From contig CAMJHQ010000014.1 in the NCBI GenBank assembly GCA_946405625.1, forward strand, positions 1 through 64,000: 64,000 bases of DNA. The letters are read 5' to 3'. The notes under the pieces are model-generated. The model saw only the letters and a program-made list of their open reading frames with translations. It did no database searches and was not told the origin of the DNA. Shown here piece by piece: positions 19,892-37,145 of the stretch. This DNA comes from an uncultured Lachnospiraceae bacterium (lineage in GTDB: Bacteria; Bacillota; Clostridia; Lachnospirales; Lachnospiraceae). Every line of letters starts with the position of its first letter. Within the stretch, counting starts at the first letter, position 1. The translations under genes were made by a program, and so were the position numbers.

Positions 19892-20615
19892 AACGGTGCT
19901 TCCTCTTCTTCGAATAGAATTCTTTCCTAACATACAATCCCGCATCAGGCTTATCTGTTATAATCCCGTCAACTCCGAGTTTCAGAAACTTCTTCATTCT
20001 TGAACTCTTATTCACCGTCCAGACATAAACAGGCATTTTGATCATCTTCATTCTGAAAATAAAGCCCCTCGTTGCCAGCCATTCATTCGGTGAAACAAAG
20101 TCACATTTACATCTTAGTATTTTTCCTATAGGAAATGATTCTTCAATCCTCTGCCAGAGCTTGATCTTTCTCGAACCAAGCAATATTCCCGTCTTTATAT
20201 TATTATCAAGTTTTTTTATCCTGTAGACAACCTTTTCTTTAAAGGATTTGATCGTATATTCGCTGTAATCGAGATATTTAGTGCACATTTTAACAACTTT
20301 ACTCTCGAATCCGGCTTCTTTAATCTCTATATCCATAGGTATTCTGTTATGGCAAAGCTTTATAACCTCTTTAAGCGTCGGTATATGAAACCCTCTGTCC
20401 TCAGCCTCATTTTCAAGCTGTTCATAGGTCTGCCATGATATCGGAGTGTCGGCAAATGTACTGTCATGTATAACAACAAGTACATTATCCTTTGTACTTC
20501 TCACATCGAACTCAACCATATCTGCGCCTAAATCAATGGCAAGCTGAAAGCTTTCAATCGTGTTGTCGATCCCCGCAAGATACGATGCACCTCTGTGCGC
20601 TATAACCTTCGTCAT
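19872..20615 (-). CDS. Glycerophosphodiester phosphodiesterase
   Basis: 247 residues of the GDPD TIM-barrel family, which releases glycerol 3-phosphate from glycerophosphodiesters using a divalent metal. Signatures: I-A-H-R-G-A-S at the start, N-T-I-E-S-F, D-M-V-E-F-D-V-R, V-I-H-D-S, and a final V-W-T-V-N...G-V-D-G-I-I-T-D-K-P-D. No signal peptide, so it acts in the cytosol. Start ATG behind AAAGGATATT. It diverges from the clpX-like gene. Confidence 0.9.
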   Translation of the reverse strand: MTKVIAHRGASYLAGIDNTIESFQLAIDLGADMVEFDVRSTKDNVLVVIHDSTFADTPISWQTYEQLENEAEDRGFHIPTLKEVIKLCHNRIPMDIEIKEAGFESKVVKMCTKYLDYSEYTIKSFKEKVVYRIKKLDNNIKTGILLGSRKIKLWQRIEESFPIGKILRCKCDFVSPNEWLATRGFIFRMKMIKMPVYVWTVNKSSRMKKFLKLGVDGIITDKPDAGLYVRKEFYSKKRKHRYEEKNN

Positions 20616-20691
20616 CAGAATATCCTTTCCCTATATAATACTCTAATACTCCACCCGCGCATTTTAACACGATGCGCCAATCATTTCAATA

Positions 20692-20721
20692 TTGTAATGT
20701 CTTACAGAGTTTTGATATAAT
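20692..20721 (+). promoter_or_regulatory. Promoter of the clpX-like gene
   Basis: TTGTAA (20692-20697), 18 bp, TATAAT (20716-20721), about 40 bp before the start codon. Confidence 0.6.
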
Positions 20722-20760
20722 CATCATAGTTTTTCAGAAATGTGTCCAAAAGGAGAAAAT

Positions 20761-22212
20761 ATGTCAGACAACAACAATAACAACAATAATAACAATAATG
20801 ATAATAATGAGAATGAATACGAAAAGTATTGCTATATGTGCAAGCGTTCCGAATCTCAAGCCGGAAAGCTGATAACCTTCGCAAAAGGAATGAGTGTATG
20901 TGCCGACTGCATGAATAAGACACTTAACTCACTCACAAACAATCCGTTTACCATCCTCGGAAATATTCCGGGTATAGATAATCTGAATATGGTATTCCCG
21001 AATATGGATATTCCGGAATCTCAGAAACTGAAACGCCGCCAGGCCAAGAAGCGTGCCGCCGGAGATGAAGCTGCAGAGAATGCCGATAATTCAAGCGAAT
21101 CAGTATCAACAGGCAAGATTAAATCACTGAAGGATCTGCCTGCACCTCATGATATCAAGAAAATGCTCGATCTGGATGTAGTTGGTCAGGAGAAAGCAAA
21201 GAAGGTTATATCAGTTGCCGTATATAACCATTATAAAAGAGTATTCTCTGACGAAACAAAGACAAAGAACACTCCGGACGAACTTGATAATGTTGAAATC
21301 GAGAAGTCCAACATGCTTATGGTAGGACCTACCGGATGCGGTAAGACATATCTCGTAAAAACCATTGCCAAGATTCTTGATGTTCCTCTTGCAATTACAG
21401 ATGCAACATCGCTTACAGAGGCGGGCTATATCGGTGATGACGTCGAAAGTGTTCTTTCGAAGCTTCTGGCTGCAGCCGGAAATGATGTTGAACGTGCCGA
21501 ACACGGAATAGTATTTATAGATGAGATTGATAAGATCGCAAAGAAGCAGGAACAGCGCTCTCGAGATGTAAGCGGTGAAGCCGTACAGCAGGGACTCCTC
21601 AAGCTTCTTGAAGGTTCCGAGGTTGAAGTACCTGTAGGTTCGGGAAGCAAGAATGCTATGACCCCTACTACAATGATGGATACAACCAACATACTCTTCA
21701 TCTGTGGAGGTGCATTCCCTGATATTGAAGATATAATCAAGGAACGTCTGTCAGCACAGTCTTCAATGGGCTTCGGAGCCTCTCTTCGTTCAGAGCTTGA
21801 TAATGATACTGCTCTGCTGTCACATGTTACTACAGATGATCTTCGTGCTTTCGGAATGATACCTGAATTCATCGGAAGACTTCCTGTTATATTCGCTCTT
21901 GATGCCCTTGATAAGGAAATGTACCAGCGAATACTTAAAGAACCTCGCAACGCTATCGTAAAGCAGTATCAGAAGCTTCTGAGACTCGATGAAGTAAAGC
22001 TCGAGTTCGATGACTCTGCATATGAAGCAATAGCTGAAAAGGCAGCTGAGAGAAAAACCGGAGCCAGGGCTCTCAGATCCATTATGGAAGAGTTCATGCT
22101 TGATATAATGTATATGGTTCCACGAGACGACACTATCGGTTCGGTAACCATAACAGGCGACTATATCCGCGGTAAGGGATCACCTATAATTAAACTTCGC
22201 GGACAGGACTGA
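20761..22212 (+). CDS. clpX: ClpX-like AAA+ unfoldase with poly-Asn N terminus
   Basis: 483 residues from the ATG at 20761 behind AAAGGAG. Residues 4-13 are ten consecutive Asn. The zinc-binding domain follows (C24-x2-C27, C47-x2-C50). A Lys/Ala/Glu-rich linker of about 60 residues precedes the AAA+ module: Walker A GPTGCGKT, pore loop G-Y-I-G, Walker B V-F-I-D-E-I-D, sensor region IPEFIGRLPV, sensor 2 G-A-R-A-L-R. The ClpP-docking loop reads M-G-F where I/L-G-F is typical, so ClpP binding is plausible. It is longer than usual ClpX (~420) and has no clpP or tig neighbour; it could be a second ClpX. It diverges from surrounding minus-strand genes. Confidence 0.85.
   Translation: MSDNNNNNNNNNNDNNENEYEKYCYMCKRSESQAGKLITFAKGMSVCADCMNKTLNSLTNNPFTILGNIPGIDNLNMVFPNMDIPESQKLKRRQAKKRAAGDEAAENADNSSESVSTGKIKSLKDLPAPHDIKKMLDLDVVGQEKAKKVISVAVYNHYKRVFSDETKTKNTPDELDNVEIEKSNMLMVGPTGCGKTYLVKTIAKILDVPLAITDATSLTEAGYIGDDVESVLSKLLAAAGNDVERAEHGIVFIDEIDKIAKKQEQRSRDVSGEAVQQGLLKLLEGSEVEVPVGSGSKNAMTPTTMMDTTNILFICGGAFPDIEDIIKERLSAQSSMGFGASLRSELDNDTALLSHVTTDDLRAFGMIPEFIGRLPVIFALDALDKEMYQRILKEPRNAIVKQYQKLLRLDEVKLEFDDSAYEAIAEKAAERKTGARALRSIMEEFMLDIMYMVPRDDTIGSVTITGDYIRGKGSPIIKLRGQD
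20770..20808 (+). repeat. AAY trinucleotide run coding poly-Asn
   Basis: Mixed AAC and AAT codons encode N10, then D-N-N. The mix of both codons suggests the tract is kept at protein level and is not a fresh slippage product. Confidence 0.85.
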
Positions 22213-22230
22213 TAATAAGCATAAACAGCA

Positions 22231-22266
22231 AAGCGGCTTAGAAGTTATTCTAAGCCGTTTATTTAT
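22231..22266 (+). terminator. Terminator of the clpX-like gene
   Basis: CGGCTTAGA/TCTAAGCCG stem (22234-22258) followed by TTTATTTATT on the plus strand. Confidence 0.8.
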
Positions 22267-22285
22267 TGTGCAAAAAGCTGTAGAG

Positions 22286-22320
22286 CACAAAAAAGCCACG
22301 GAATAAAACCGTGGCTTTTT
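22286..22320. terminator. Bidirectional terminator
   Basis: AAAAAGCCACGG/CCGTGGCTTTTT with a 7-base loop; T-runs on both strands. It ends the KA-rich gene on the minus strand and backs up the clpX terminator. Confidence 0.85.
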
Positions 22321-22346
22321 CTATATATTTCATTTAAAAGCAATTC

Positions 22347-23072
22347 TTAGTAATTGAAAGAACCGTTCTCGCCGTCAGCTGTGAAGTAAACCATGTTGTT
22401 CTCCGGCTGATAGTAGATGTTAAGCTCCTTAACTGACTTCTTTCCTGAAACCTCAAGAGCCTTTGCTACGATATCATCTGTAGAAACATTTCCACCCTGA
22501 TACTGAACATAGAGTGTTGTCTTCTTTGAAGCTGCTGCCTTCTTAGGAGCTGCTGCCTTCTTTGCAGGTGCCTTCTTAGCTGCTACTGCCTTCTTAGGAG
22601 CCTCAGCCTTCTTTGCAGGTGCCTTCTTAGCTGCTACTGCCTTCTTAGGAGCCTCAGCCTTCTTTGCAGGTGCTTTCTTAGCTACTGCTGCTGCCTTCTT
22701 TGCAGGTGCCTTCTTAGCTGCTGCTGCCTTCTTAGGAGCTTCTGCCTTCTTTGCAGGTGCCTTCTTAGCTGCTTCAGCCTTCTTTGGAGCCTCTGCCTTC
22801 TTTGCAGGTGCCTTCTTTGCAGCTGCTGCTGTCTTCTTTGGAGCTTCAGCCTTCTTTGCAGGTGCTTTCTTTGCAGGTGCCTTCTTAACTGTCTCAGCCT
22901 TCTTTGGAGCCTCAGCCTTCTTTGGAGCTTCTGCCTTAGCCTCAGTCTTTACTTCAGCCTTCTTAACTTCTTCCTTCTTAACCTCAGCCTTTACTTCAGC
23001 CTTAGCATCAGCCTTAATAGCTGCTGCAGCCTTCTCAGCGAGATCTGCTACACTTGCTTTCTTAACTGCCAT
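22347..23072 (-). CDS. KA-rich (histone H1-like) protein with C-terminal DUF6465-type domain
   Basis: 241 residues from the ATG at 23072 behind ACGGAGGAATTG. Residues ~25-185 are almost only Lys, Ala, Pro and Glu in blocks such as KKAPAKKAEAPKKA, repeated about ten times. Such tails resemble histone H1-like bacterial proteins (HctB/AlgP type) and would bind DNA or RNA non-specifically. The last ~55 residues (TTLYVQYQGGNVSTDDIVAK to the end) form a folded domain of unknown function that I recall as DUF6465, common in Lachnospiraceae. It has its own promoter and terminator. A nucleoid role is inferred only. Confidence 0.8.
   Translation of the reverse strand: MAVKKASVADLAEKAAAAIKADAKAEVKAEVKKEEVKKAEVKTEAKAEAPKKAEAPKKAETVKKAPAKKAPAKKAEAPKKTAAAAKKAPAKKAEAPKKAEAAKKAPAKKAEAPKKAAAAKKAPAKKAAAVAKKAPAKKAEAPKKAVAAKKAPAKKAEAPKKAVAAKKAPAKKAAAPKKAAASKKTTLYVQYQGGNVSTDDIVAKALEVSGKKSVKELNIYYQPENNMVYFTADGENGSFNY
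22527..22930. repeat. Imperfect tandem repeat coding the KA-rich region
   Basis: Blocks near 24-60 bp built from the codons for KKA, PAKKA and EAPKKA recur about ten times with few changes. Adjacent copies near 22560-22680 are nearly identical, so copy number is likely to vary between strains. Confidence 0.75.
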
Positions 23073-23151
23073 TTTCAATTCCTCCGTTAAAAATGTTAAT
23101 CGTTAATCAATTCAATTTGCTGTTTAAATGATTCAGTCTTTTACCTTAAAG

Positions 23152-23180
23152 ATTTTAATATTAAATTAACATTTTTGCAA
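23152..23180 (-). promoter_or_regulatory. Promoter of the KA-rich gene
   Basis: TTGCAA (23175-23180), 17 bp, TAAAAT (23152-23157) on the minus strand, about 80 bp upstream of the ATG. Confidence 0.6.
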
Positions 23181-23327
23181 CAGTTCTACAAATTTTCTCC
23201 ATTTTATATAAAATATCCGACATCTTAACGCTTCTTTTGTACAAAACTTACATGTATTTTTGTTAAAAATCACACAAATTTATTTTTGTGAAATATTACT
23301 TAAATATCTGCTCCGAAATATACAAAA

Positions 23328-24335
23328 TCACTCAAACGAAATTGCAAAGCCTGTGGATGAATATTCTAGCAATAATTTTATATCTTCTGCATCTTCCGGA
23401 AAACTGTCTGTCATTCCATCAACACTATTCCATCCGAGTGTAAGAGCTCCCTTCTTAAATGCCGGGAATTCTGTCTGACAAAGCTCTTCATATTCCTCAA
23501 TTGTAAGTGAATTTTGGTTTTTATCAAAATATTCGGTTTCTACCGTTTCACCTTCATCAGATGAAAACATATGACTTGAGCCGATTACTTCACCATCTAC
23601 AACTCCGTTCTTTAATGTAACCGATTCCATCACCTCATAGATATCAGCTGCAGAAGCCTTTACCACATCGTCGAAAATATAATAAAGAGTTCCATCAGCC
23701 TCATTTATATAAGCATCAGCCATATCTATGGTTATATCAGGTTCAGAACTTCCTTCAGGAACTTCCCAGACTACTTTATCCAAAGACTTATAATCCGCAC
23801 TGACTTCATAGAATTTGGAAGTCGTAAACAGTCCGCTCCCCTGAACAGTCGAAGTTATAACCTCAAGTCTTCCGTTCTTATCAAGATCAGTTACGGTATA
23901 TAACCATTCCGGTCCTGCAACAATACCATCCTCTTCAGATGGACCCGCGAGCTTCCAGATTCCTGCATTTTCAGCTATAACAGTAAGCTGTTCATCAAGA
24001 TTCTCTATATCTGTAAGCAGATATTCTTCAGACTGATCTTCAACATCCTCAGTAGTCGCTTCGGTAAGTATTTCCGTAGACGGCTCTACAAGCACTTCAT
24101 TCTTGTCCTCCGCCTTTTCTGTCGATGAAGTTTTTGAATTCTCCTTTGATTCAGTTGAAGCTGAAGCCTCTGTAGCAGAAGCCTTCACATCTTCAATATC
24201 AGCTTCGCTTTGAGCTTCCGTAACAGCTTCACTGTGAGATTCTTCGGTTGATTCACTCTGTCTTTTACCTTCAGAACCACAACCGCTCAAAGTAAGAACA
24301 GTGATCAAGGAAATACAAACCAGTCTTTTTTTCAT
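23328..24335 (-). CDS. Lipoprotein at the end of the hscC operon
   Basis: 335 residues from the ATG at 24335, behind GGGGGATTTC. A short signal peptide ends in the lipobox T-L-S-G-C. Residues ~25-110 are a low-complexity Ser/Glu/Thr/Ala linker. The C-terminal ~220 residues (from ENLDEQLTVIAENAGIWKLA) include PEWLYTVTDLDKNGRLEVIT, a D-x-D-x-N-G-R-L-E calcium-loop-like motif seen in FG-GAP or VCBS-type repeats. The ATG overlaps the hscC stop (TGATG), so translation is coupled. An extracytoplasmic lipoprotein coupled to a cytosolic chaperone is unexpected. Function unknown. Confidence 0.8.
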   Translation of the reverse strand: MKKRLVCISLITVLTLSGCGSEGKRQSESTEESHSEAVTEAQSEADIEDVKASATEASASTESKENSKTSSTEKAEDKNEVLVEPSTEILTEATTEDVEDQSEEYLLTDIENLDEQLTVIAENAGIWKLAGPSEEDGIVAGPEWLYTVTDLDKNGRLEVITSTVQGSGLFTTSKFYEVSADYKSLDKVVWEVPEGSSEPDITIDMADAYINEADGTLYYIFDDVVKASAADIYEVMESVTLKNGVVDGEVIGSSHMFSSDEGETVETEYFDKNQNSLTIEEYEELCQTEFPAFKKGALTLGWNSVDGMTDSFPEDAEDIKLLLEYSSTGFAISFE

Positions 24336-26032
24336 CAGAAATCCCCCTTCTCCCAATTATCCAGGAACTCAATTAGGATACCGCGTTCCTTCTCTATCAT
24401 ACGCTTATCCTGTGATGAAAGTGCAAGTTCAAACTTTCTTACATGATCCTCTATTACTTCTCTGTCCATACCGAGACTTTCCTCATATAGTCTCTCACAT
24501 CTGAGAAGGACGAGTTTATTCTCTTCCTGATCTCTCGGATGGATCTTCAGATAAGATAATTCTTTAAATCTTTCTTCTATCTCTTCATCAGTCATCTCGG
24601 TATACTGACCCTTGATGATCTGTCTGACCTTCTTTCCTGTAGAAACAACCGTAACCTCAACCTCAAGTATCGAATTGATATCATAGGTATAGGTAACATC
24701 AACAGACTGTTCTCCGGCCTTTCCTTTAGGTACATCCAGCTCAAGCTTTCCGAGCAGCAGATTATTTTTTGCCATTCTGCTTTCACCCTGAAGTACTTCT
24801 ATATCAATCTTCGTCTGATCATCCCTGATCGTATAGAACCTCTCTGTACGGCTTGCAGGAATAATAGTATTACGTTCAATGATAGGACAGAAATGTCCTG
24901 CTTCCCTATGATTATCACCAAGGTCAACAGACACTTCGGTTCCGAGAGTAAACGGACATACATCAGTGAGGACCACTTCTCTGATGGAATCCTTTCTCTC
25001 TTTCATAGCACCCTGAACCGCCGCTCCGAGAGCAACAGCTTCATCCGGGTTTATACTTGTATCAGGAAAACTCTTGAAGAGCTTTCTTACAAAGCTTCTT
25101 ACTCCCGGAAGTCGGGTAGCTCCTCCGACCAGTACTATTTTACTGATATCGCTCAGCTTAAGCTTGGCATCTGCAAGAGCTCTCTTAACCGGAACTCTGA
25201 TCCTCTCATAAAGGTCTTCGCATTTCTTCTCATACTCTGCATCAGTAATATCTGTTTCTATTATCTCGTCGCCGATCTTACACTTCATAGTAACGGTTCC
25301 ACTGTCACTAAAGGCTTTCTTTGCAAGTTCAGCCTGTCTGTAGATCATCTTCATCTCACGATATTCAAGATCATCCGCAGAGAGCTCCTTATTCTTCTCA
25401 AAGAAAATTTCGATCAACGCCTCAGTAAAGTCTTCTCCTCCGAGGAAGTTATCACCCGCAACAGCTCTTACCTCAAGGATCGGCGGAAAATAATCAAGTA
25501 TGGATACATCGAAGGTTCCCCCTCCGAGATCGAACACAAGATTCTTCGCAGGCTTCTTGTCATTATAAAGTCCATACGCAATCGCAGCCGCAGTCGGCTC
25601 ACTGATTATTCTTTCAACCTTGAGTCCGGCAAGCTCTCCTGCCCTCTTGGTTGCCTTTCTTCTCATATCATTAAAATATGCGGGTACGGAAATAACCGCT
25701 TCGGTTACTTCTTCCCCAAGAAATGTTTCCGCATCCTCCTTAAGAGAACGTAAAACAAAGCTTGAAAGCTCTTCTGCCGTAAAACTCTTGCTTCCGAGAT
25801 CAAACTTCTTATCTGAACCCATGCTTCTCTTAAATACCGAAGCACTGGTCTGCGGATAAAGCTGCATTCTCTCGACTGCAGTCTTACCGACATAAACATT
25901 ATCATCTTCATCGATGCTTACCACTGACGGAGTAAGCACCTCTCCAAACCTGTTGGGTATAACCTTCGGTCCTTCGTCCGTATAATATGCAACCAGACTG
26001 TTAGTCGTACCCAGATCAATTCCTATTATCAA
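24335..26032 (-). CDS. hscC: Hsp70-family chaperone, HscC type
   Basis: 565 residues, shorter than DnaK (~610-640) and close to E. coli HscC. ATPase motifs: IGIDLGTTNS (3-12), DLGGGTFDVSIL, and L-V-G-G-A-T-R-L-P. HscC-like segments: FKRSMGSDKKF, ELSSFVLRSLKEDAETFLGE, VAGDNFLGGEDF, VLTDVCPFTLGTEV, P-I-I-E-R-N-T and Y-T-Y-D-I-N-S-I-L-E-V-E-V. A shortened substrate-binding lid follows and there is no acidic DnaK tail. It overlaps the upstream J-like/TPR gene by 4 bp (ATGA) and the lipoprotein gene by 1 bp. In E. coli HscC works with J proteins of the DjlB/DjlC type; here the J-like/TPR protein is the natural partner candidate. Confidence 0.9.
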   Translation of the reverse strand: MIIGIDLGTTNSLVAYYTDEGPKVIPNRFGEVLTPSVVSIDEDDNVYVGKTAVERMQLYPQTSASVFKRSMGSDKKFDLGSKSFTAEELSSFVLRSLKEDAETFLGEEVTEAVISVPAYFNDMRRKATKRAGELAGLKVERIISEPTAAAIAYGLYNDKKPAKNLVFDLGGGTFDVSILDYFPPILEVRAVAGDNFLGGEDFTEALIEIFFEKNKELSADDLEYREMKMIYRQAELAKKAFSDSGTVTMKCKIGDEIIETDITDAEYEKKCEDLYERIRVPVKRALADAKLKLSDISKIVLVGGATRLPGVRSFVRKLFKSFPDTSINPDEAVALGAAVQGAMKERKDSIREVVLTDVCPFTLGTEVSVDLGDNHREAGHFCPIIERNTIIPASRTERFYTIRDDQTKIDIEVLQGESRMAKNNLLLGKLELDVPKGKAGEQSVDVTYTYDINSILEVEVTVVSTGKKVRQIIKGQYTEMTDEEIEERFKELSYLKIHPRDQEENKLVLLRCERLYEESLGMDREVIEDHVRKFELALSSQDKRMIEKERGILIEFLDNWEKGDF

Positions 26033-29000
26033 TTTTTCCCTCCGGTCAACAAATTCATTGCCGAAATAACCTCACTGTCTTCAGCACCTGTTTCATTCGC
26101 TTTTTTATAATACTCCAAAGCGGCCGGAATGTCATGCTCAAATTCACATATCTTCGCATTCATAAGATAAGCTTCATAACATTTCGCATGTCTGCAGGCT
26201 CTGCATCTCGGTGCATCAGCCAGTTCTCTGAGCATCTGAAGAGCCTTATCCTTCTCTCCGAGAAAATAAAGCATCAGTGCATATTCTTTCTTTCTGTATG
26301 TTGAATTTTCAGTATACTCCAGATAATTATCTACCTTATCCTTCGATATAGCCTTGATACATTCATTTATTTCTTTTGCAGCATCCCGCGCTCTGTCCGG
26401 CTTACCTATATAAGCAGCCGAAACCATAATGGTAGATGAAATATCCATATAAGTATGAAGCAGATTATTATCTTTGATCTGCCTGTAAGGTCCAAGGTAT
26501 GAAAGCGCTCTCTCGGCAATCTTAAGTGCTTTCTTATATTCTCTGAGACTATAAAGATAAAATGCGGAATATCTCTCAAGAATATATGCAGCCACATTCT
26601 TGTTTTCAAATCTGACGGCATTCTTTCCGCCCAGATCAAGCAGCCTGTAATCATCGATGAATTTCTTGAGCATCGTCTTAAATATAGCATCTGCCGCCTT
26701 CTTATTATGCTCATGCAGTCTTGTATTATATATATCTACATAAACTTCAAAAAGGTTATTAAGATTCCATTCATTCTTTGAATTCCTGAAGCTGTCCTCA
26801 TTAATGCGGGCTACCTTCATATATTCTTTTACTGATTCATCAAATCGCTTTGCTTTATTAAGAGCAAGCGCAAGTCTGTAGTGAGTTGTTTTATTCTCCC
26901 CGAATCTTTTCAAAAGCTCTTTCAGTATTTCTACAGACTTCTCATATTTAAACTGCATCTCATAACATTTAGCAAGATTATGATAGAGATTAGGAAGTGC
27001 ATCATCATTTGAGACACCTTCCATTTCCTTAAGACCTCGCAGGAAGCTTTCCTCTGCCTTCTCATAATCTTTTAACATCATAAGAGCAACACCCTTTGCA
27101 TTATATGCATAATAATTGGTGTCATCTTTTTCGAGCGCCTTATCACAGTCTATGACTGACTTCTCATATTCCGCTCCCTTATTATACAGCAGTGCGCTCT
27201 CAACATAATAATAATCATCATTATCATTTTCAAGCTGTTTTACGGCATGTTCCGCTGCTTTTCTGTAATTATCCGGATCTTCGGTCTCATAATACAGACT
27301 GTCATACACCCTTGAAAGCTTATTATGAGCCGCACGATGATGCGGGTTAAGTTCAAGTGTTCTGTCAAGATATTCTATTGCCTCATTATACCTGTCATTC
27401 TCAAACTTTAACACACCCATCGAATAATTGAGCCCTATACTGTCAGGACTCTTCTCAAGGCCTTCTTTATAGCATTCCTCAGGAGATTTTCCTATCATCC
27501 TGTAATATCTTCCAAAAGACAGATAATAATCATTCAGAACATTAAACTTGATGATATCATTTTCCTCATCCTGAAGGCCGCTCTTTATCTCTTCCAAAAG
27601 ATTTCCCGCTTTATCGGTATCTCCTTTATCAAGATACATATCCGCTTCTACAAGTTTAAGTGCAGAACTGTCAATGTCTTCTTCACGGGCCTTAGCAAGA
27701 ACCTCCTCAAGATTTTTATACTGATCATAGATATAGAACACCTTTGCGGCATAATAATAGCTCTTTACGTATTTTCGGGCATGAGCCTGAAGTATATAAT
27801 AATCATCAATAACAAGCTGTGCATCATGCATTTCAAATGCAGTTGCCTGTCTCCTTACATACGCAGCAATATAAAACCTGTTCTCCTCGATCATCTGATT
27901 CCAGATTTCCATAGCCTTTACATATTCATGATTCTCATGATAGCAGCATGCAAGTCCCTCCTTATAATACGGAACATCAACCTCATCATGCTCATTTGCT
28001 ATGGCATACTTAATATACTCCTCTGCTTTTTCATAATCACCGCTATCACCCTTACAGATTCCGTTAAGATAGAAGCAGTATGCAAGTCTCTTAAGTTTCT
28101 TTGTTTCTTCCTCACTGACGCTTTCAGGATTCTTCTCTTTCTTCGACTCAAAGAAAAGAAGAGCTTCCTTCCATTTTTCAAGATAAGGAAGGGCACTCCT
28201 AAAGTCCTCCTTCTTGAAATAGCATCTTCCGAGTATATTATAATAATCCGAATAATAAATGCTGAAAGGCTCGGGAATATCGGTAGCATTCAATAGCTCG
28301 ATCGCATCATCCACTCTGTCGCTTCTGAAAAGTCCCCAGCATTTATCTATAACATACTTAACCTCACCCGGTTCCTCTTCGATCTTCTTATCATAATATT
28401 CAACCAGCTTGCCGTTTACATACGGCAGGATCTTTATCGCATCCGCATTATTCGCGTCAATCTCAAAGAGACTCATAAGAGTATCATTTGCCTTCTCATA
28501 ATCCCTGATAACACAGTAATAGAATACTCGTGCTCTTAAAGCTATATTGAACTTCGGCCTTGCTTCGAGAACCTCATCGATGATCTCTTTGATCTGAGAA
28601 AGATATTCATACCCCTCTCCGACTTCATCATATGCCATCTCTTTCATGAGATAATAGCATGCTGTTGCCTTCATATAATAATCAGCTATATCATTCAGCC
28701 TGCCTGTCACAACCTGCTCAGCAAGATATCTTGCCTTGTCATGTTCATCAAGAAACCCGAACAGCCTGATAAGGCCACTGTATTCAACCGGATGGAAAAT
28801 CCTGCTTTTCCTTGCAAATGTAAGATTTCCGTACAATTCGTCGATACATTTTCCAATCTCTTCCGGCGCATTATCAAGCGACGGAATGCTCTGATAATTT
28901 ACGACTTCTTCTATATCTCTGACAATCGGAGAAATAGCACTCAGATAATCATCTTCAGGGCATGAATAATCAGGCTCGACGTAATCAACCTTCCTTTCCG

Positions 29001-29592
29001 GAAACTCCGGAATTACAATGCCTCTTTCTTCGAGCAGATCATTAAAGTTATCTCTTTTAATTATGCTTGAAAAGCCTATGAAATCCTCATTATCTATATG
29101 ATAATCGATATAATCGATGAAATCTTCCGCAAATCTCTCTTTAAGAGACGCAGATTCATTTCTTATCATAAAAACAGTGTCTGCGAGTTTATAAACATAA
29201 TGAGGAAGATAGAATCTTTCGAGCAGGACCTTGAGAAATTCTTCCCTGGCTCTGTCGGCCGTATCAAGTTCATTGCAGATCGGATCTTCAAAAAGCTCCT
29301 TCCACAACTCTATATCGACTCTCTTATCTATATCATCATAGATTTCTCTTATCTTCTCCACAAAAGGTCTGAACTGAGGATCCACTTCATCAACCTCATC
29401 ATGTGCACTTTCGGACTCATCCGAATTTGCATAAGCCATGGCAGTTTCAAAAGCTTCACGAAGAGCCTTAAAGCCCTCCGGGTCATCCTCGGGATTTACA
29501 GTTACAACCTTACTTCTGTAGGCGTCAACTATAGCGTCAACATCTTTTGTTTCCCCTATTTCAAGTATTTCCCAAACCTTCTCAATTTTCAT
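26029..29592 (-). CDS. Large TPR protein with degenerate N-terminal J domain
   Basis: 1187 residues, no signal peptide or membrane helix. Residues 4-55 read as a J domain (W-E-I-L-E-I-G, A-Y-R-S-K-V-V, F-K-A-L-R-E-A-F), but the H-P-D tripeptide that activates Hsp70 is N33-P34-E35. From about 225 to the end there are many TPR pairs (ALPYLEKWKEALLFF, ALEKDDTNYYAYNAKGVALM, AIEYLDRTLELNPHHRAAHN). Near the end is a Cys cluster (C1130, C1133, C1138, C1149). It starts 7 bp after tex, whose last codons supply AAGGGAA as ribosome binding site, and overlaps hscC by 4 bp. Likely an HscC cochaperone or scaffold; inference. Confidence 0.8.
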   Translation of the reverse strand: MKIEKVWEILEIGETKDVDAIVDAYRSKVVTVNPEDDPEGFKALREAFETAMAYANSDESESAHDEVDEVDPQFRPFVEKIREIYDDIDKRVDIELWKELFEDPICNELDTADRAREEFLKVLLERFYLPHYVYKLADTVFMIRNESASLKERFAEDFIDYIDYHIDNEDFIGFSSIIKRDNFNDLLEERGIVIPEFPERKVDYVEPDYSCPEDDYLSAISPIVRDIEEVVNYQSIPSLDNAPEEIGKCIDELYGNLTFARKSRIFHPVEYSGLIRLFGFLDEHDKARYLAEQVVTGRLNDIADYYMKATACYYLMKEMAYDEVGEGYEYLSQIKEIIDEVLEARPKFNIALRARVFYYCVIRDYEKANDTLMSLFEIDANNADAIKILPYVNGKLVEYYDKKIEEEPGEVKYVIDKCWGLFRSDRVDDAIELLNATDIPEPFSIYYSDYYNILGRCYFKKEDFRSALPYLEKWKEALLFFESKKEKNPESVSEEETKKLKRLAYCFYLNGICKGDSGDYEKAEEYIKYAIANEHDEVDVPYYKEGLACCYHENHEYVKAMEIWNQMIEENRFYIAAYVRRQATAFEMHDAQLVIDDYYILQAHARKYVKSYYYAAKVFYIYDQYKNLEEVLAKAREEDIDSSALKLVEADMYLDKGDTDKAGNLLEEIKSGLQDEENDIIKFNVLNDYYLSFGRYYRMIGKSPEECYKEGLEKSPDSIGLNYSMGVLKFENDRYNEAIEYLDRTLELNPHHRAAHNKLSRVYDSLYYETEDPDNYRKAAEHAVKQLENDNDDYYYVESALLYNKGAEYEKSVIDCDKALEKDDTNYYAYNAKGVALMMLKDYEKAEESFLRGLKEMEGVSNDDALPNLYHNLAKCYEMQFKYEKSVEILKELLKRFGENKTTHYRLALALNKAKRFDESVKEYMKVARINEDSFRNSKNEWNLNNLFEVYVDIYNTRLHEHNKKAADAIFKTMLKKFIDDYRLLDLGGKNAVRFENKNVAAYILERYSAFYLYSLREYKKALKIAERALSYLGPYRQIKDNNLLHTYMDISSTIMVSAAYIGKPDRARDAAKEINECIKAISKDKVDNYLEYTENSTYRKKEYALMLYFLGEKDKALQMLRELADAPRCRACRHAKCYEAYLMNAKICEFEHDIPAALEYYKKANETGAEDSEVISAMNLLTGGKN

Positions 29593-29598
29593 ACTTTA

Positions 29599-31731
29599 TC
29601 AGATTCCCTTCATTGAAAGACCGATCCTGTTCTTTTCAGTATCGATGCTTATAATCTTAACATCAACCACATCTCCGACACTTACAACATCGAGCGGATG
29701 CTTTACAAACTTTTTGTCCGAAAGCTGTGATATATGTACAAGTCCGTCCTGATGAACTCCGATATCAACAAATGCACCGAAATCGATTACATTTCTAACT
29801 GTACCCTTAAGAACCATTCCGACCTCAAGATCCTTGATATCAAGGACATCGCTTCTGAGGATCGGCTTAGGCATATCAAGTCTCGGATCACGGCTTGGCT
29901 TGGAAAGCTCTTTGATAATATCATCAAGTGTGATATCACCGATTCCGAGTTTACCTGCAAGTTCTGTCTTTTCCTTCTTAGAGAACTTACCGAGCTCCGA
30001 TCCGCTTGCCTCTGCATATTTGAGTATCTCATCCGCAGCTCCGTAGCTTTCCGGATGAACAGCAGTATCATCAAGAGGATTTGATCCACCGTGAATTCTG
30101 AGGAAGCCCGCACACTGCTCATATGCCTTTGCCCCAAGTTTCGGAACCTTAAGAAGTTCCTTCCTCTCCCCGAATCTTCCGTTCTCTTCTCTATATACAA
30201 CGATATTCTTCGCAATAGTCTTATTTATACCGGAAATGTATGTAAGGAGTGATACTGAAGCTGTATTCAGATCTACGCCAACGCTGTTAACGCAGTCCTC
30301 GACAACATTTGAAAGAGATTCTCCGAGCTTCTTCTGGTTCATATCATGCTGATACTGACCTACACCGATCGACTTCGGATCGATCTTAACAAGCTCAGCA
30401 AGAGGATCCTGCAGACGTCTTGCTATAGATGTCGCAGATCTCTGGCCTACATCAAATTCCGGAAATTCCTCTGTAGCAAGCGCACTGGCTGAATAAACAG
30501 ATGCTCCTGCCTCATTGGTTATCACATATTCAACCTTCTCCGGAATCTCTTTAAGTATCTCTACTATAATCTGTTCGGATTCACGTGAAGCTGTTCCGTT
30601 ACCTACGGAAATAAGTGATATATTGTACTTCTTTATAAGTTTCTTTACGGTCTCCTTGGCATTTCTTATCTTCTCAGGAGTTGTAGGAGCAGTAGGATAA
30701 ACTACCGTAGTATCAAGAACCTTTCCTGTCTCGTCTACAACAGCAAGCTTGCATCCGGTCCTGAAAGCCGGATCCCACCCGAGTACTACACGCCCGCTTA
30801 CAGGAGGCTGCATAAGAAGCTGAGTCAGGTTCTTTCCGAAAACCTTAATAGCTCCATCCTCGGCATCCTCGGTAAGCTTGTTTCTTATCTCTCTTTCAAT
30901 AGAAGGAGCGATAAGTCTGTCATATGCATCCTCTGCCGCATTTCGAAGTATTTCAGCAGTATCAGCATCTTCTTTTCCGACAATCTTCTTGTTCAGATAT
31001 TCGAGTATCTCATCACGAGGTGCCTCGATCGTAACTGTAAGTACCTTTTCCTTCTCGCCTCTGTTAACGGCAAGAGTCTTATATCCTGACATTTTAGATA
31101 CAGGCTCATGGAAATCATAATAATTCTCATATACAGATTTTGCTTCAGGATCCTTGGCAGCCGAATTTAAGATACCCTTCTTCTCTGTGAGCTCTCTGAT
31201 ATAAGTCCTGTAATCAGCATCATCGGATATATTTTCAGCTATTATGTCCGATGCTCCCGCAATCGCATCATCGGCGGATGCCACGCCCTTCTCCTCTGAT
31301 ATGTAATCTGCAGCTTCATCCATGATGCTTTTCTTATTGATCTGCATATAGATAAGATTTGCAAGAGGTTCAAGTCCCGCTTCCTTTGCAATAGTAGCTC
31401 TTGTTCTTCTCTTTGGCTTATACGGCCTATATATATCTTCAAGAGCAACCATTGTCATCGCATCTTCTATAGCCTTCAGGAGTTCCGGTGTCATCTTACC
31501 CTGTTCTTCAATGGTAGAGATGACTGTTGCCTTTCTCTCTTCAAGATTTCTGAGAAATGTGAGCCTGTCGTAAAGCTGTCTCAGCTGTTCATCATTAAGC
31601 GCTCCCGTCTTCTCCTTTCTGTATCTCGCAATAAAAGGCACCGTACAACCATCATCCAAAAGCTCAACGGCTGCCGCTACCTGTCCCTGTCTAACCTCAA
31701 GTTCATCTGCAATTGTCTTAACTATATCCAT
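29599..31731 (-). CDS. tex: Tex-family RNA-binding transcription accessory protein
   Basis: 710 residues, the family length. N-terminal helical Tex domain (VPFIARYRKEKTGALNDEQLR), a YqgF/RNase H-like core (VVLGWDPAFRTGCKLAVVDE), helix-hairpin-helix segments (SVGVDLNTASVSLLTYISG) and a C-terminal S1 RNA-binding domain (VGMVLKGTVRNVIDFGAFVDI, VHQDGLVHISQLSDKKFVKH). It binds nucleic acid and associates with transcription in other bacteria. First gene of tex - J/TPR - hscC - lipoprotein. Its upstream leader on the sense strand holds 124 bases without a G. Ribosome binding site AAAGGA lies 12 bases before the ATG, longer than usual. Confidence 0.95.
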   Translation of the reverse strand: MDIVKTIADELEVRQGQVAAAVELLDDGCTVPFIARYRKEKTGALNDEQLRQLYDRLTFLRNLEERKATVISTIEEQGKMTPELLKAIEDAMTMVALEDIYRPYKPKRRTRATIAKEAGLEPLANLIYMQINKKSIMDEAADYISEEKGVASADDAIAGASDIIAENISDDADYRTYIRELTEKKGILNSAAKDPEAKSVYENYYDFHEPVSKMSGYKTLAVNRGEKEKVLTVTIEAPRDEILEYLNKKIVGKEDADTAEILRNAAEDAYDRLIAPSIEREIRNKLTEDAEDGAIKVFGKNLTQLLMQPPVSGRVVLGWDPAFRTGCKLAVVDETGKVLDTTVVYPTAPTTPEKIRNAKETVKKLIKKYNISLISVGNGTASRESEQIIVEILKEIPEKVEYVITNEAGASVYSASALATEEFPEFDVGQRSATSIARRLQDPLAELVKIDPKSIGVGQYQHDMNQKKLGESLSNVVEDCVNSVGVDLNTASVSLLTYISGINKTIAKNIVVYREENGRFGERKELLKVPKLGAKAYEQCAGFLRIHGGSNPLDDTAVHPESYGAADEILKYAEASGSELGKFSKKEKTELAGKLGIGDITLDDIIKELSKPSRDPRLDMPKPILRSDVLDIKDLEVGMVLKGTVRNVIDFGAFVDIGVHQDGLVHISQLSDKKFVKHPLDVVSVGDVVDVKIISIDTEKNRIGLSMKGI

Positions 31732-31745
31732 TGTCTGTAAATTCC

Positions 31746-31869
31746 TTTGTGTTGATTTGATTTTTGTATTTTGATTTTGTTTTTTTGTGTTAAATATTTT
31801 TGTATTTATATTTAAATAATTATATTTATGTATTTGTATTTATGTATATTTATTTATGTATTGTATTTA
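31746..31869 (-). other. G-free A/T-rich leader upstream of tex
   Basis: For 124 bp the plus strand has no C, so a minus-strand tex transcript would have no G here. The sequence is built from short AAATACA/ACATAAAT-like words. Such RNA can hardly fold. Confidence 0.7.
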
Positions 31870-31941
31870 CGCTTTTATGTATTTCTGTTTATATATTGTA
31901 TTTATATACTCTGATCGAAAAGTCTTTTTTCATTCAGCCCT

Positions 31942-31986
31942 AAAAAATAATAGGAGCAGAGGTTTTAGCCTCTGCCCCTCTTATTT
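31942..31986 (-). terminator. Terminator of the HU gene
   Basis: GGGGCAGAGG/CCTCTGCTCC stem with a CTAAAA loop, flanked by A- and T-rich ends; TATTATTTTTT follows on the minus strand. Confidence 0.8.
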
Positions 31987-32010
31987 TACTTTGATCAAGC
32001 CGAAGTATAA

Positions 32011-32313
32011 TTACTTCTTCTTTGCTGACTTCTTAGGCTTTGTATTAACAAGGTCCTTAAGAGCCTTACCAGCCTTGAACTTTGGAACTGCTGCTGCCTT
32101 GATCTTGATAGCCTCACCGGTCTGAGGATTACGAGCTGTTCTAGCCTTTCTCTCGCCAACTTCGAATGTACCGAATCCGATAAGCTGTACCTTGCCCTTA
32201 TTCTGAAGCTCTGAAGATACAACGTTAACGAATGACTTTACTGCTGCCTCAGCATCCTTCTTTGAAAGACCTGTCTCTGCAGCAATAGCTGTTACAAGTT
32301 CTGTCTTGTTCAT
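32011..32313 (-). CDS. hup: HU-family DNA-binding protein
   Basis: 100 residues. MNKTELVTAIAAETGLSKKD, VQLIGFGTFEVGERKART and ARNPQTGEAIKIKAA are the HU/IHF signatures; the beta-arm RNP motif (ARNPQTG) inserts into the DNA minor groove. A Lys-rich tail (KPKKSAKKK) extends the usual 90 residues. It bends and compacts DNA as a homodimer. It has its own consensus-like promoter and terminator. Start behind GAGAGGT. Confidence 0.97.
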   Translation of the reverse strand: MNKTELVTAIAAETGLSKKDAEAAVKSFVNVVSSELQNKGKVQLIGFGTFEVGERKARTARNPQTGEAIKIKAAAVPKFKAGKALKDLVNTKPKKSAKKK

Positions 32314-32366
32314 AGTATTTACCTCTCAATACATATTATTTTTCCGTTGCTAACACAACTATACTG

Positions 32367-32395
32367 ATTATACTGTGTTAAAGCCCGTATTTCAA
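32367..32395 (-). promoter_or_regulatory. Promoter of the HU gene
   Basis: TTGAAA (32390-32395), 17 bp, TATAAT (32367-32372) on the minus strand, about 55 bp upstream of the start codon. Confidence 0.8.
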
Positions 32396-32493
32396 TCTAT
32401 TTCTTACATTTTTTTACACTTTTTTTATAAAAATGTAACAAAAATAGTACATTTTCTGTAAAAAAGAGCGATTGGGACCGAAAAACGTCCGTT

Positions 32494-34410
32494 TTACATG
32501 TCAATATTGGCATCTCGGCTGTTTTCTTCGATGTATTGACGACGCGGAGCGACCTCTGTTCCCATCAGAATTTTGGTTATCGTACTCGCTTCCGCAACAC
32601 TTGAAACCGAAACCTGTTTCAGAACCCTGCTCTCCGGATCCATAGTGGTTTCGAAAAGCTGATTGGCATCCATTTCACCGAGACCTTTATAACGCTGAAT
32701 AGTGAACTTATTCTTATGGGCAGCTCTGTACTTTTCAAGTTCATCATCAGAATACAGATATTTTATATTCTTTCCCTCTCCGACTCTGTAAAGAGGCGGG
32801 ATTGCTATATAGATATGGCCTTCTGTAATAAGGTCAGGATAAAATCTGTAGAAAAACGTAAGCAGGAGCGTTGCTATATGTGCTCCGTCGACATCGGCAT
32901 CAGTCATAATGATTATCTTATCATAATTAAGCTTTGTGATATCAAAATCATTTCCGAATCCCGTACTGAAGCCGCATCCGAAGGCATTGATCATAGCCTT
33001 GATCTCGGCATTTTCAAGAACCTTCGATACAGGAACCTTCTCAACATTGAGTATCTTACCTCTGAGCGGAAGGATTGCCTGATATTTACGGTTTCTTGCA
33101 GTCTTTGCAGAACCGCCGGCGGAATCACCCTCAACTATAAATATCTCACATTTCTCAGCTTCCGAACTCTCCTGTCTTACAAGCTTACCGTTTCCTTCAA
33201 AAGAAAACTTACTGAGATTAACCTTGGATTTGGACTTTGCCTTCTCCTTTGCCGTCTCTATCGCTCTATCTACGATATCCTTAAGAACATCATAATTACG
33301 GTCGAAATAAACCGTAAGCTGTTCACGCATTATAGCATCTATCGCATTTGTGACATCGGTATTTGAAAGTCTTGTCTTGGTCTGTCCTTCAAACTGAGGA
33401 TTAGGATGTCTTATGGAAACTATAGCCTGTATTCCCTGTCTTATGTCGGCACCCGAAAGATTTGCATCCTTCTCTTTAAGTGCACCGAGTTCATTTCTTG
33501 CATAATTATTTATTATCTTCGCAAATGCTGACTTGAATCCGGAAACATGAGTACCACCTTCAGGGTTTGTAATGTTATTTGTAAATCCGATAACATTCTC
33601 ATCTCCGTCTTCTGTCGCAACGAAAACTATATCGGCCGCTATGTCATTCTTCTCACCTGAAATAGCAACGACCGGTGATGTTTTTGTAAGATCGCTGGAA
33701 ATGTCCTCTACAAAGCTTGAGAGTCCTCCCGGCTGATGGAAGGTCTCAGGCGGATAATTATCACGCTTATTTTCATAAACTATAGTAAGATTCGGATTGA
33801 GATATGCTGTTTCCTTCAGCCTCTGACGGATTGCCGAAGATTTGAATCTTACAGTCTCGAAGATAGTTTCATCCGGATATAGAGTTACGGATGTTCCCGA
33901 CTTCTTGCCGCGTACAGGCTCTGACGGAAGCAGACCGTCTATAAGCTGAGTAGTCGGCTTACCGTATTCATAGGTATCATGATATACATTTCCATCTCTA
34001 TATACATCTACTATAAGCTTCTTTGAAAGTGCATTTACGACCGCAGATCCAACACCGTGAAGTCCACCGCTTATCTTGTAGATAGAATCATTGAACTTTC
34101 CTCCGGAGTGAAGTACCGTAAATACAACTCTTTCAGCACTCTTCTTTTCGGTAGGATGCATATCAACGGGAATTCCTCGTCCATCATCCGTTACCGTTGC
34201 CGAACCGTCTTCATTTAGAGTTACTCTTATATTCTTGCAGAAACCTGCCAGGTGCTCATCAACCGCATTATCTATCAGCTCCTGAACCAGATGATTAAGA
34301 CCGGACCTTCCGGTACTTCCGATATACATTCCCGGTCTGAGTCTGACAGGTTCAAGGCCCTTGAGGACCTTTATCGCCTCTGAATTATAATCCTGATTTT
34401 TTCCTGCCAT
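32494..34410 (-). CDS. parE: DNA topoisomerase IV / gyrase-type subunit B
   Basis: 638 residues. GHKL ATPase domain (LIDNAVDEHLAGF, V-T-D-D-G-R-G-I-P-V, GGLHGVGSAVVNALS), transducer with Q-T-K-T-R-L (QTK loop lysine) and TOPRIM domain (IVEGDSAGGSA, P-L-R-G-K-I-L-N, M-T-D-A-D-V-D-G-A-H-I). The GyrB-CTD tail ends RRQYIEENS. Its ATG overlaps the parC stop by one base (TAATG). Pairing directly after the A subunit rather than recF/gyrB context favours topoisomerase IV, but family split cannot be proven here. Separates daughter chromosomes and relaxes supercoils. Confidence 0.92.
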   Translation of the reverse strand: MAGKNQDYNSEAIKVLKGLEPVRLRPGMYIGSTGRSGLNHLVQELIDNAVDEHLAGFCKNIRVTLNEDGSATVTDDGRGIPVDMHPTEKKSAERVVFTVLHSGGKFNDSIYKISGGLHGVGSAVVNALSKKLIVDVYRDGNVYHDTYEYGKPTTQLIDGLLPSEPVRGKKSGTSVTLYPDETIFETVRFKSSAIRQRLKETAYLNPNLTIVYENKRDNYPPETFHQPGGLSSFVEDISSDLTKTSPVVAISGEKNDIAADIVFVATEDGDENVIGFTNNITNPEGGTHVSGFKSAFAKIINNYARNELGALKEKDANLSGADIRQGIQAIVSIRHPNPQFEGQTKTRLSNTDVTNAIDAIMREQLTVYFDRNYDVLKDIVDRAIETAKEKAKSKSKVNLSKFSFEGNGKLVRQESSEAEKCEIFIVEGDSAGGSAKTARNRKYQAILPLRGKILNVEKVPVSKVLENAEIKAMINAFGCGFSTGFGNDFDITKLNYDKIIIMTDADVDGAHIATLLLTFFYRFYPDLITEGHIYIAIPPLYRVGEGKNIKYLYSDDELEKYRAAHKNKFTIQRYKGLGEMDANQLFETTMDPESRVLKQVSVSSVAEASTITKILMGTEVAPRRQYIEENSRDANIDM

Positions 34411-36896
34411 TACTGTTTTCCTTTCTTGTTACCTTTGCCGCCGCGTTTAACCGCTTTCATATCCGACAAGCTGATACCGTTAAAGCTGTCGGAATTGCTT
34501 CCGCTCATCGCACTGACAACCTTATCTCCCTTTCTGAGCGAGATAAGAGTTACACCTCCGGCTCCCTTACCCTGAACCGGAATATCGGTAGCTTTAACCT
34601 TTATCGAATAGCCTTCCTCTGTTTCGGCTACTATATAATCATCTTCAAAGCCGACATAGACAGGTCTGCTCTTAATAGCTGCCGCTGTCTTTCTGGCAGT
34701 ATCAAAAAGTGCAGCATTTACACGTTTAGCCTTACCTTCTTCTGTAACAAAGATAAGATTTCTGCCTATATTCATTCCTCCTATATCCGTATCGGTATAG
34801 TCGGTCTCGGCATCATAACCGAGAAGTGCCGTACTGTCAGCAGACTCATCGGAATAACCTGCTCCCGATTCATCCATAAAGTCCTCAAAGCTTCCGCCTG
34901 AAAGACTTCCGTCGACCATATCATCAAACTGCATTTCAGCAGAAGCATCAGGAATAGCAGCTGCTACATTTACAGGCACAGCTCCTTCACCGGATACTGT
35001 ACCTGAACCGTCAGCCGACTCATCTGTTATCGTTCCTGCAGGATTAAGCTCCGATACTGCCATCATTGCAACAACATCAGCACTGTCTGACATTCCGCAG
35101 AATTCGAATATCTGTATACCCTTATCGGTTATCCTGAACTTCTTATCCTTCTTGGTCTGCTTCTTTAAAATGTCAGAAACCTTGATTATATGTACCATTC
35201 CTTCGCTGTCGAAAAGAGCAACTCTGTCATCACTCATACAATCCACAGCGAATTTATATGCAACATCCTTATTCTTTGCAAAGACACTGCGAGGAGCCGA
35301 CTTGATATAGAAGAATCTGTCAAGAAGTACCGTTTCCTCTGTAGCAACAGCCTTCTCCTTTGCAACTATTACCTCTCCGAGATTTTCTATAACTGTACGT
35401 CTCGGAACGGCATATTTCTTCTTAAGCTCCTCAATATCTGCGATCATCTGCTTCTTCATCTCACGATCAGACTCAAGAAGTCTTGTATATCTTGCAAGAA
35501 GCTTCTCCGTTTCGGCAAGCTCTTTTCTCAGAACATCAACTTCGAGTCCGATAAGCTTCTGAAGTCTCATTGCAAGGATTGCATCTGTCTGTCTTTCGGT
35601 AAAATGCAGCTGCTTCGCATCATCTATCGAGCCCTTATAACGGAATTTGATATTGTCGGTCTTTCCGAACATCAGGCATTCCTTGGCATCCTTGGTATTC
35701 TGTGATCCACGAAGCACTTCAATTATAAGATCGATCACATCAACCGCCTCAAGAAGTCCTGTCTTTATTTCCTTCTGAACCTCCTGATCTGCCTTGAGTG
35801 CAGTATACTTATCCTTATATACTTCCCACTTATATTCAGTATAAGTTTCAAGAACTCTTCTGAGTCCCATAACTTCCGGTTTTCTGTTATATATGCAGTT
35901 AATATTTACGCTATATGTATCCTCAAGTCCGGCCTTCTTATAAAGAATATTGATAATCTTCTGAATCTCTTCTTCGGTCGTTCCCTTCTTAACGTCAATA
36001 CACAGGCACTCGCCTTCCTTATCACCTCTGTCGGCTATATCGACAACAGCAGGAAGCGATCCCTTACGGACAAGCTCTGCCACAGTATTTAAAAACTTTT
36101 CAGTCTGGTTGATCATTGTATAAGGGATTTCGGTAACACATATGGACTTACGGCCCTTTCCGATATCTCTTACTTCAACCTTACCGCGGACCTTCAGCTT
36201 TCCGAGACCTGTCTCATATATCTGAAGAAGTGCATCCTCATCGATATTTATGATTCCGCCTGTTGCAAAATCCGGTCCCTTTACAATTCTGAGAAGAGCT
36301 TCTGTTGAGATTGACGGATCCTGAAGATAAGCTATTTCAGCATCAGCAACCTCTTCCATGTTATGAGTCGGGATATTTGTTGCCATTCCGACCGCAATAC
36401 CGGTTGCTCCACTGGTAAGCATATTCGGAATAAGAAATGGTATATGAACCGGCTCTTTCTCTGTTCCGTCGAAATTCGGAATAAAATCACAATACTTAAG
36501 ATCCTTCAGACCTTCTTCGGCATATTTAGAAATTCTAGCCTCAGTATAACGCATAGCCGCAGCGCCGGATCCTGATACATCACCGAAATTTCCGTGAGGA
36601 TCAACAAGCGGTATTGGAAGCTTCCAACTCTGAGCCAGGTTTACAAGGCCTTCATATATTGAGCTGTCACCGTGGGGATGATACTTACCCATTGTATCAC
36701 CGACGATTCTCGCACATTTTCTGTGAGGGCTGTCAGAACGTGTAAGCTCTGAGAGTGAATAAAGAATTCTTCTCTGTACAGGCTTCAGTCCGTCCTTAAC
36801 ATCCGGAAGGGCACGTTCGGTAATTACCGACATGGCATAATCCACATAATCCTGCCCCATCTCATCTTCATAATTGACTGTTTTAATCTTTTCCAT
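34410..36896 (-). CDS. parC: DNA topoisomerase IV / gyrase-type subunit A
   Basis: 828 residues from the ATG at 36896 behind AGAGGTGG; an upstream in-frame start at 36950 has no such site. Breakage-reunion domain: LPDVKDGLKPVQRRILY, the quinolone-region GKYHPHGDSSIYE (drug-sensitive-type Ser and acidic residues), catalytic Tyr in A-M-R-Y-T-E-A-R. The C-terminal beta-pinwheel is broken by ~91 acidic, Gly/Ser/Ala-rich residues (about 618-708, encoded 34773-35045) that do not fit the blade pattern. A basic tail (KRGGKGNKKGKQ) ends the protein. Translationally coupled to parE. Confidence 0.92.
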   Translation of the reverse strand: MEKIKTVNYEDEMGQDYVDYAMSVITERALPDVKDGLKPVQRRILYSLSELTRSDSPHRKCARIVGDTMGKYHPHGDSSIYEGLVNLAQSWKLPIPLVDPHGNFGDVSGSGAAAMRYTEARISKYAEEGLKDLKYCDFIPNFDGTEKEPVHIPFLIPNMLTSGATGIAVGMATNIPTHNMEEVADAEIAYLQDPSISTEALLRIVKGPDFATGGIINIDEDALLQIYETGLGKLKVRGKVEVRDIGKGRKSICVTEIPYTMINQTEKFLNTVAELVRKGSLPAVVDIADRGDKEGECLCIDVKKGTTEEEIQKIINILYKKAGLEDTYSVNINCIYNRKPEVMGLRRVLETYTEYKWEVYKDKYTALKADQEVQKEIKTGLLEAVDVIDLIIEVLRGSQNTKDAKECLMFGKTDNIKFRYKGSIDDAKQLHFTERQTDAILAMRLQKLIGLEVDVLRKELAETEKLLARYTRLLESDREMKKQMIADIEELKKKYAVPRRTVIENLGEVIVAKEKAVATEETVLLDRFFYIKSAPRSVFAKNKDVAYKFAVDCMSDDRVALFDSEGMVHIIKVSDILKKQTKKDKKFRITDKGIQIFEFCGMSDSADVVAMMAVSELNPAGTITDESADGSGTVSGEGAVPVNVAAAIPDASAEMQFDDMVDGSLSGGSFEDFMDESGAGYSDESADSTALLGYDAETDYTDTDIGGMNIGRNLIFVTEEGKAKRVNAALFDTARKTAAAIKSRPVYVGFEDDYIVAETEEGYSIKVKATDIPVQGKGAGGVTLISLRKGDKVVSAMSGSNSDSFNGISLSDMKAVKRGGKGNKKGKQ

Positions 36897-37123: not shown

Positions 37124-37145
37124 AAACCGCTATATATTCACAAAT

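Follow-up and report, generated by a model that had tools for sequence, protein, structure and literature searches.

A conserved HscC/J-TPR gene pair with an altered J signature in Lachnospiraceae

HscC is a poorly understood bacterial Hsp70. Here we describe a gene pair, occurring in many gut and rumen Lachnospiraceae, that joins an HscC to a very large protein with an N-terminal J domain and tetratricopeptide repeats (TPR), termed J-TPR below. The pair was found in a 64,000-nucleotide stretch of contig CAMJHQ010000014.1 from an uncultured Lachnospiraceae bacterium (the window), where tex, the J-TPR gene, the HscC gene and a lipoprotein gene follow one another closely (Table 1). An earlier sequence-only reading had joined all four into a dedicated chaperone system, perhaps for a membrane or transcription complex. 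Comparison across genomes supports the HscC/J-TPR pair as the conserved unit and leaves tex and the lipoprotein unsupported as parts of it. The pair is likely to be a working cytosolic chaperone system in which the J signature is altered.

Judged by its sequence, the Hsp70 of the window is an HscC, and the preference given earlier to this assignment over DnaK proved sound. The protein (PF00012, E 1e-132) is 45% identical to Escherichia coli HscC over 551 aligned positions and 42% identical to the DnaK of its own genome over residues 2-496. In an IQ-TREE tree of 35 rows, where HscC and HscA of E. coli sit on long branches, a branch with 100/100 support divides 29 HscC-type rows (E. coli HscC and 28 from Lachnospiraceae) from 6 DnaK/HscA rows. 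Features of the HscC subfamily given in a portion of PMC8215388 include length, indels, absence of the GrpE signature and an ATPase that responds to DjlC-type but not to DnaJ-type partners. At 565 residues the window's protein lies inside the HscC range of 550-580, and the alignment shows HscC-type indels together with the linker VxLTD. The gap at the GrpE signature is common to E. coli HscC, with the region kept in DnaKs of the same order; in the lid, the two HscCs share a gap of 11 columns. The protein also has the deletions at DnaK 76-101 and the D211 loop, but they also occur in DnaKs of the same order and are therefore not discriminating. L1,2 has 9 residues more than in DnaK (4 in E. coli HscC), one past the stated range. 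Against NCBIfam the protein reached no curated cut-off, and no HscC model was among its matches.

HscC and J-TPR occur together. Below, HscCs with 53-95% identity to that of the window are called group A; those with 41-47% identity, whose J partners are shorter, are called group B. Among 299 Lachnospiraceae genomes (298 genera), 49 carried both genes, 1 HscC only, 2 J-TPR only and 247 neither (Fisher 1e-52, a value that ignores kinship and uses thresholds set after the lists were viewed). The best 4 HscC and best 10 J candidates per genome were scored; HscC was counted at E <=1e-118, minus nine genomes with only a distant group-B HscC, and J matches at <=1e-30, weaker ones including ordinary DnaJ. 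The genome with HscC only (G191) has the gene on a 3-kb contig behind a cut open frame, and those with J-TPR only are G244, fragmentary, and G322, in which a group-B HscC is present. The neighbour conservation that the sequence-only reading had put forward as its check thus holds in both adjacency and co-occurrence: 47 of 52 group-A HscC copies, in 50 genomes, adjoin a J gene, 46 lying behind it, including L134, where the J frame is split, and one (L140) preceding it. Four copies stand apart (G042, contig C61 of G171, G087 and G275) and one is at a contig edge. When pairs were defined as a J gene followed on the same strand by HscC at no more than 400 bases, other orders being uncounted, 111 distinct pairs were obtained, 93 with gaps of <=60 bases and 30 with an overlap of 4 or 1. 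In a collection of named genomes, HscC lay directly behind the J gene on the same strand in 68 of 79 J loci (best 80 matches), including Tissierella pigra and T. simiarum. Of 398 genomes drawn across the phylum, 13 matched at 1e-10, three of them in Lachnospiraceae.

The J-like start ascribed to the 1187-residue TPR protein was borne out by both profile and model. PF00226 was found in 82 of 83 J-TPR N-termini (E up to 10; best 3.8e-8), a profile search against PDB sequences gave 4.1e-9, and the J helices are present in the predicted structure of the N-terminus. The full-length model has a mean predicted local distance difference test score of 93.1, and many long TPR scaffolds are among its Foldseek matches; the whole protein gave only TPR matches against solved structures. 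A hidden Markov model of residues 60-200 matched five other Bacillota J proteins (E 4e-26 to 2e-6) and E. coli DjlC (0.018), with DjlB not among the matches. The window's protein aligns with DjlC at 28% over 127 positions (E 7e-15), and the profile of the J-TPR alignment, built from 83 of 84 J rows without L134, whose frame is split, matched DjlB and DjlC at ~3e-31 in a set of 4336 sequences. Full-length proteins were compared in a second alignment of 69 of 74 rows, omitting L142, L145, L146, L147 and L157 as short or divergent. None of these 69 large proteins has a hydrophobic segment (19-residue hydropathy >=1.8), and the highest value in the window's J-TPR is 1.03. By these comparisons, J-TPR proteins are kin of DjlB and DjlC that carry a predicted TPR superhelix and lack a membrane anchor. 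The J domain is their best conserved part, at a median of 54% identity to the window versus 14-32% elsewhere. The C-terminal cysteine motif (Table 1) is absent in all 7 aligned HPE-type rows of the window's genus (L095-L098 and L173-L175).

At the site of the canonical HPD motif, J-TPR proteins carry a different signature. In 84 Lachnospiraceae rows the site reads NPE in 65, HPE in 17, NPV in 1 and RPD in 1; in the 111 distinct pairs the counts are NPE 97, HPE 12, NPV 1 and RPD 1 (L199 read as NPE by eye). The pattern used to scan the named collection demanded N or H, which makes that scan unusable alone for motif frequency. Partners of the group-B HscCs L149, L151 and L155 were missed by the query and stand outside the motif and hydropathy counts; two of them are HPE by eye. 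The single RPD-type gene lies between two HscC-type genes, one very divergent (L147 6887-13892, G171). HPE is also aligned at this site in E. coli DjlB and DjlC, and part of a 2026 review calls it the sole tolerated HPD replacement (PMC13254874). According to a section of PMC8215388, H33 of DnaJ bonds the backbone of L391; an Asn could make the same bond.

The HscC side of this contact is largely constant whichever letter its partner carries. The residues that contact J in DnaK are kept in group-A HscCs at R167, P419 and D393 (each 68/68), L391 (66/68) and Q378 (61/68), and R167, L391, P419 and mostly Q378 are retained with an Asn or a His partner alike. Ser replaces N170 in 63 of the 68 group-A rows, regardless of the partner's letter. 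On a tree of 75 HscCs, 5 changes between Asn and His are needed, and well-supported branches force 5. This tree, from a quick search with Shimodaira-Hasegawa-like approximate likelihood ratio support only, covers HscCs with a J gene no more than 400 bases away, except L147, and additionally L189, L193 and L250, chosen as HPE readers. Among 54 inspected HscC positions, taken from the consulted part of PMC8215388 and our own picks, none covaried with the partner's Asn or His; the columns that best separate the two overall are variable positions.

J-TPR diverges faster than HscC and, in the window's genome, is present in more copies. Within the genus, near-type HscCs are 69-95% identical to that of the window and a second, far type 54-57%, while J-TPR shows 73% and 49% identity in the two closest genomes, and the best segments of other near-type partners reach ~31-37%. 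Together with the conservation of the J domain relative to the rest of the protein, these figures fit a constant engine combined with client or target surfaces that diverge. In the window's genome a single HscC goes with three J-TPR genes. HscC is absent from the surrounding 16 kb read for each of the other two J-TPR genes, and these extra copies would share the single HscC. Elsewhere, L229 5980-12507 holds a tandem pair of J-TPR genes, with no HscC in that stretch.

The closest known counterpart is the HscC/DjlC/DjlB system of E. coli. Its Hsp70 belongs to the same subfamily, the J domain and following stretch of DjlC align with J-TPR, Glu replaces the Asp of HPD, hscC and J partner genes stand side by side, and there is more than one J partner per HscC, djlB and djlC lying near one hscC. 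DjlB and DjlC differ in size, however, at 475 and 483 residues compared with 860-1340 for partners of the window's type. They also have, C-terminally, a hydrophobic segment (hydropathy 2.39 and 1.99) where J-TPR carries a TPR superhelix instead of a membrane anchor, and they are HPE where the window and most Lachnospiraceae J-TPR proteins are NPE. Unlike in E. coli, the J-TPR and HscC genes are on one strand, usually with J first. In E. coli K-12 675570-679406, not far from hscC, djlB is surrounded by the Sel1-repeat genes ybeQ and ybeT. Sel1 repeats are TPR-like, and the two genes may supply, in trans, an equivalent of the TPR part.

Other Bacillota J-TPR partners (L263, L264, L265 and L267; those of L264 and L267 are cut by the stretch end) likewise combine a J domain with TPR repeats, but with the signature HPE. 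The HscC-like Hsp70 gene is directly upstream of the J gene in L263, L265 and L267, the reverse of the window's order, and none is present in the L264 stretch; the L265 partner, unlike that of the window, has a hydrophobic segment (2.06). At L263 1483-3501 (G529), directly behind the HscC-like gene, the J(HPE)-TPR protein has 672 residues and a C-terminal DUF1266. DUF1266 may be a component of HscC systems, since it forms the end of this partner and, in E. coli, ybeR and ybeU, both DUF1266 genes, stand immediately before djlB and djlC. Eukaryotic DNAJC7 and DNAJC3 also combine a J domain with TPR repeats in a single protein, and the TPR part of DNAJC7 binds clients such as Tau according to an excerpt of PMC13254874. 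In both, however, TPR precedes J, and DNAJC7 holds the EEVD tail of Hsc70, a tail that Lachnospiraceae HscCs lack; the shared architecture is presumably convergent.

In the working pair that we propose, the TPR superhelix, located in the cytosol, would bind clients or a target complex and hand them to HscC. The NPE J domain would then dock on the HscC interdomain linker, eliciting ATP hydrolysis and client trapping, and nucleotide exchange would proceed without GrpE. Extra J-TPR copies would provide further targeting factors for one HscC, and the long soluble superhelix would take the place of the DjlB/DjlC membrane anchor. We lean modestly toward a more specific proposal: that the Lachnospiraceae and Tissierella branch of J proteins works with Asn for the HPD His, Asn hydrogen-bonding the HscC linker as His does, and that HscC and its giant soluble J-TPR form a distinct Hsp70 system of the cytosol, marked by its own J signature and served in some genomes by several targeting factors that are interchangeable on a single Hsp70. 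Several points weigh against a working pair. Foldseek with the N-terminal model alone gave weak matches, and three DnaK contact residues are lost in HscC. An H-to-Q change abolishes stimulation in every tested system, and altered-HPD proteins are termed pseudo-JDPs, in the portions consulted of PMC8215388 and PMC13254874; Asn is moreover the commoner letter among the pairs. The last two points favor the main rival, a type IV pseudo-J domain whose Asn lets it bind HscC without triggering hydrolysis, so that J-TPR tethers, stores or restrains HscC. We judge this unlikely. Asn and His swap five times on the HscC tree and no inspected contact column follows, a pattern that is easier to understand if both letters function alike. 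Strong conservation of the J domain is also unlike a decaying domain, although a binding-only domain would stay conserved as well.

Two further explanations concern the partners. J-TPR might serve the housekeeping DnaK and adjoin HscC by operon history only; DnaK is encoded in the same genome, and two J-TPR copies there have no HscC nearby. Yet J-TPR occurs in 49 of 50 genomes with a group-A HscC but only in 2 of the other 249, where DnaK is also expected, and Glu for Asp at the HPD site recalls DjlB and DjlC, so that DnaK service seems very improbable. Least probable of all is that tex, J-TPR, HscC and the lipoprotein act together as a functional unit. Tight spacing and overlaps in the window speak for it, as does tex directly upstream of the pair in L081, L082, L182 and L183, but with the window these are only 5 of 111 pairs (in L119 tex is two genes upstream), and other upstream genes reach 10 each elsewhere. 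The lipoprotein, with no Pfam family above cut-off, occurs in the two closest genomes (L081 = L181, L082 = L185) and is missing in L182 and L183. We therefore rejected tex and the lipoprotein as conserved members, contrary to the four-gene proposal; they are local neighbours in a small clade. No recurrent third partner emerged beyond lineage-specific neighbours, the top two directly upstream being a PF04464 glycerophosphotransferase-like gene and an isocitrate-dehydrogenase-like gene, the latter named by eye (10/111 each). In one lineage (L083, L084, L087, L088, L091 and L094) a CDP-glycerol glycerophosphotransferase-domain protein of ~860 residues precedes the pair, with PF04464 in the two scanned. 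The suggested membrane complex finds no support, as the 69 large J-TPR proteins lack the hydrophobic segment that DjlB and DjlC possess. For the suggested transcription complex, no link was found beyond tex itself and the binding and inhibition of sigma70 by overproduced E. coli HscC, as reported in part of PMC3861889.

The claimed order and spacing of the four genes were confirmed by direct reading: 6 bases separate the tex stop from the J-TPR ATG, the J-TPR stop and HscC start overlap by 4 bases (TTGA) with GGAGG just upstream, and the HscC stop and lipoprotein ATG overlap by 1 base (TGATG). The interval given for them earlier, 24335-31731, was too short, however, as the lipoprotein gene falls outside it. 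An HscC TTG start across the J-TPR stop, behind GGAGG, fits translational coupling. In the window tex and the J-TPR/HscC genes probably share a transcript; a single one is plausible because tex is preceded by a terminator-like hairpin and a promoter-like site. Promoter-like sites outnumber shuffles all over the scanned region. No Rfam family matched positions 19000-37500 at gathering score. An anti-phage defence reading was dropped, none of the four proteins matching a PADLOC family at E 0.001. Beyond the lipoprotein gene, whose open reading frame in the program-made list begins 7 codons earlier at TTG, positions 22347-23078 encode a Lys/Ala-rich protein with DUF6465 as its C-terminal part.

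Table 1. Features of the tex, J-TPR, HscC and lipoprotein locus in the window
Feature	Position	Strand	Description
Terminator-like hairpin	31979-31952	-	Behind HU gene; consensus scan only
Promoter-like site, 10/12	31848-31819	-	Before tex; consensus scan only
tex	31731-29599	-	710 aa; Tex domains (Pfam)
J-TPR protein gene	29592-26029	-	1187 aa; DjlB/DjlC-related, N-terminal J domain and long TPR superhelix
J domain, residues 1-56	29425-29592	-	Helices 3-10, 18-31, 38-56; profile and model
NPE (Asn33-Pro34-Glu35)	29488-29496	-	HPD in canonical J domains; alignment; loop between helices 18-31 and 38-56 in model
Post-J helical region, residues 79-200	28993-29358	-	Common to HscC J partners of other Bacillota
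TPR superhelix, residues 201-1187	26032-28992	-	TPR families, model, Foldseek
CxxC-x4-C motif (C1130, C1133, C1138), C-terminal	26179-26205	-	Motif in 57/69 rows
HscC-type Hsp70 gene	26032-24335	-	565 aa; TTG start behind GGAGG
Lipoprotein gene	24335-23328	-	335 aa from ATG

In literature on HscC, the J domain, TPR, the HPD motif and Lachnospiraceae, none among the titles and abstract starts listed pointed to an HscC/J-TPR pair, and the Barriot 2020 survey of bacterial J proteins may list J-TPR partners. E. coli becomes more sensitive to Cd2+ when hscC, or djlB along with djlC, is deleted, as stated in a passage of PMC8215388. The Lachnospiraceae pairing with an altered J signature makes a poorly understood HscC branch testable. 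With a dedicated, huge and apparently soluble partner in 49 sampled genera, clients of HscC can be looked for through the TPR part, and natural swaps of Asn and His at a supposedly indispensable J-domain position offer a direct handle on the role of the histidine. If the proposal is true, these bacteria would have a separate HscC Hsp70 system with its own J signature in the cytosol.
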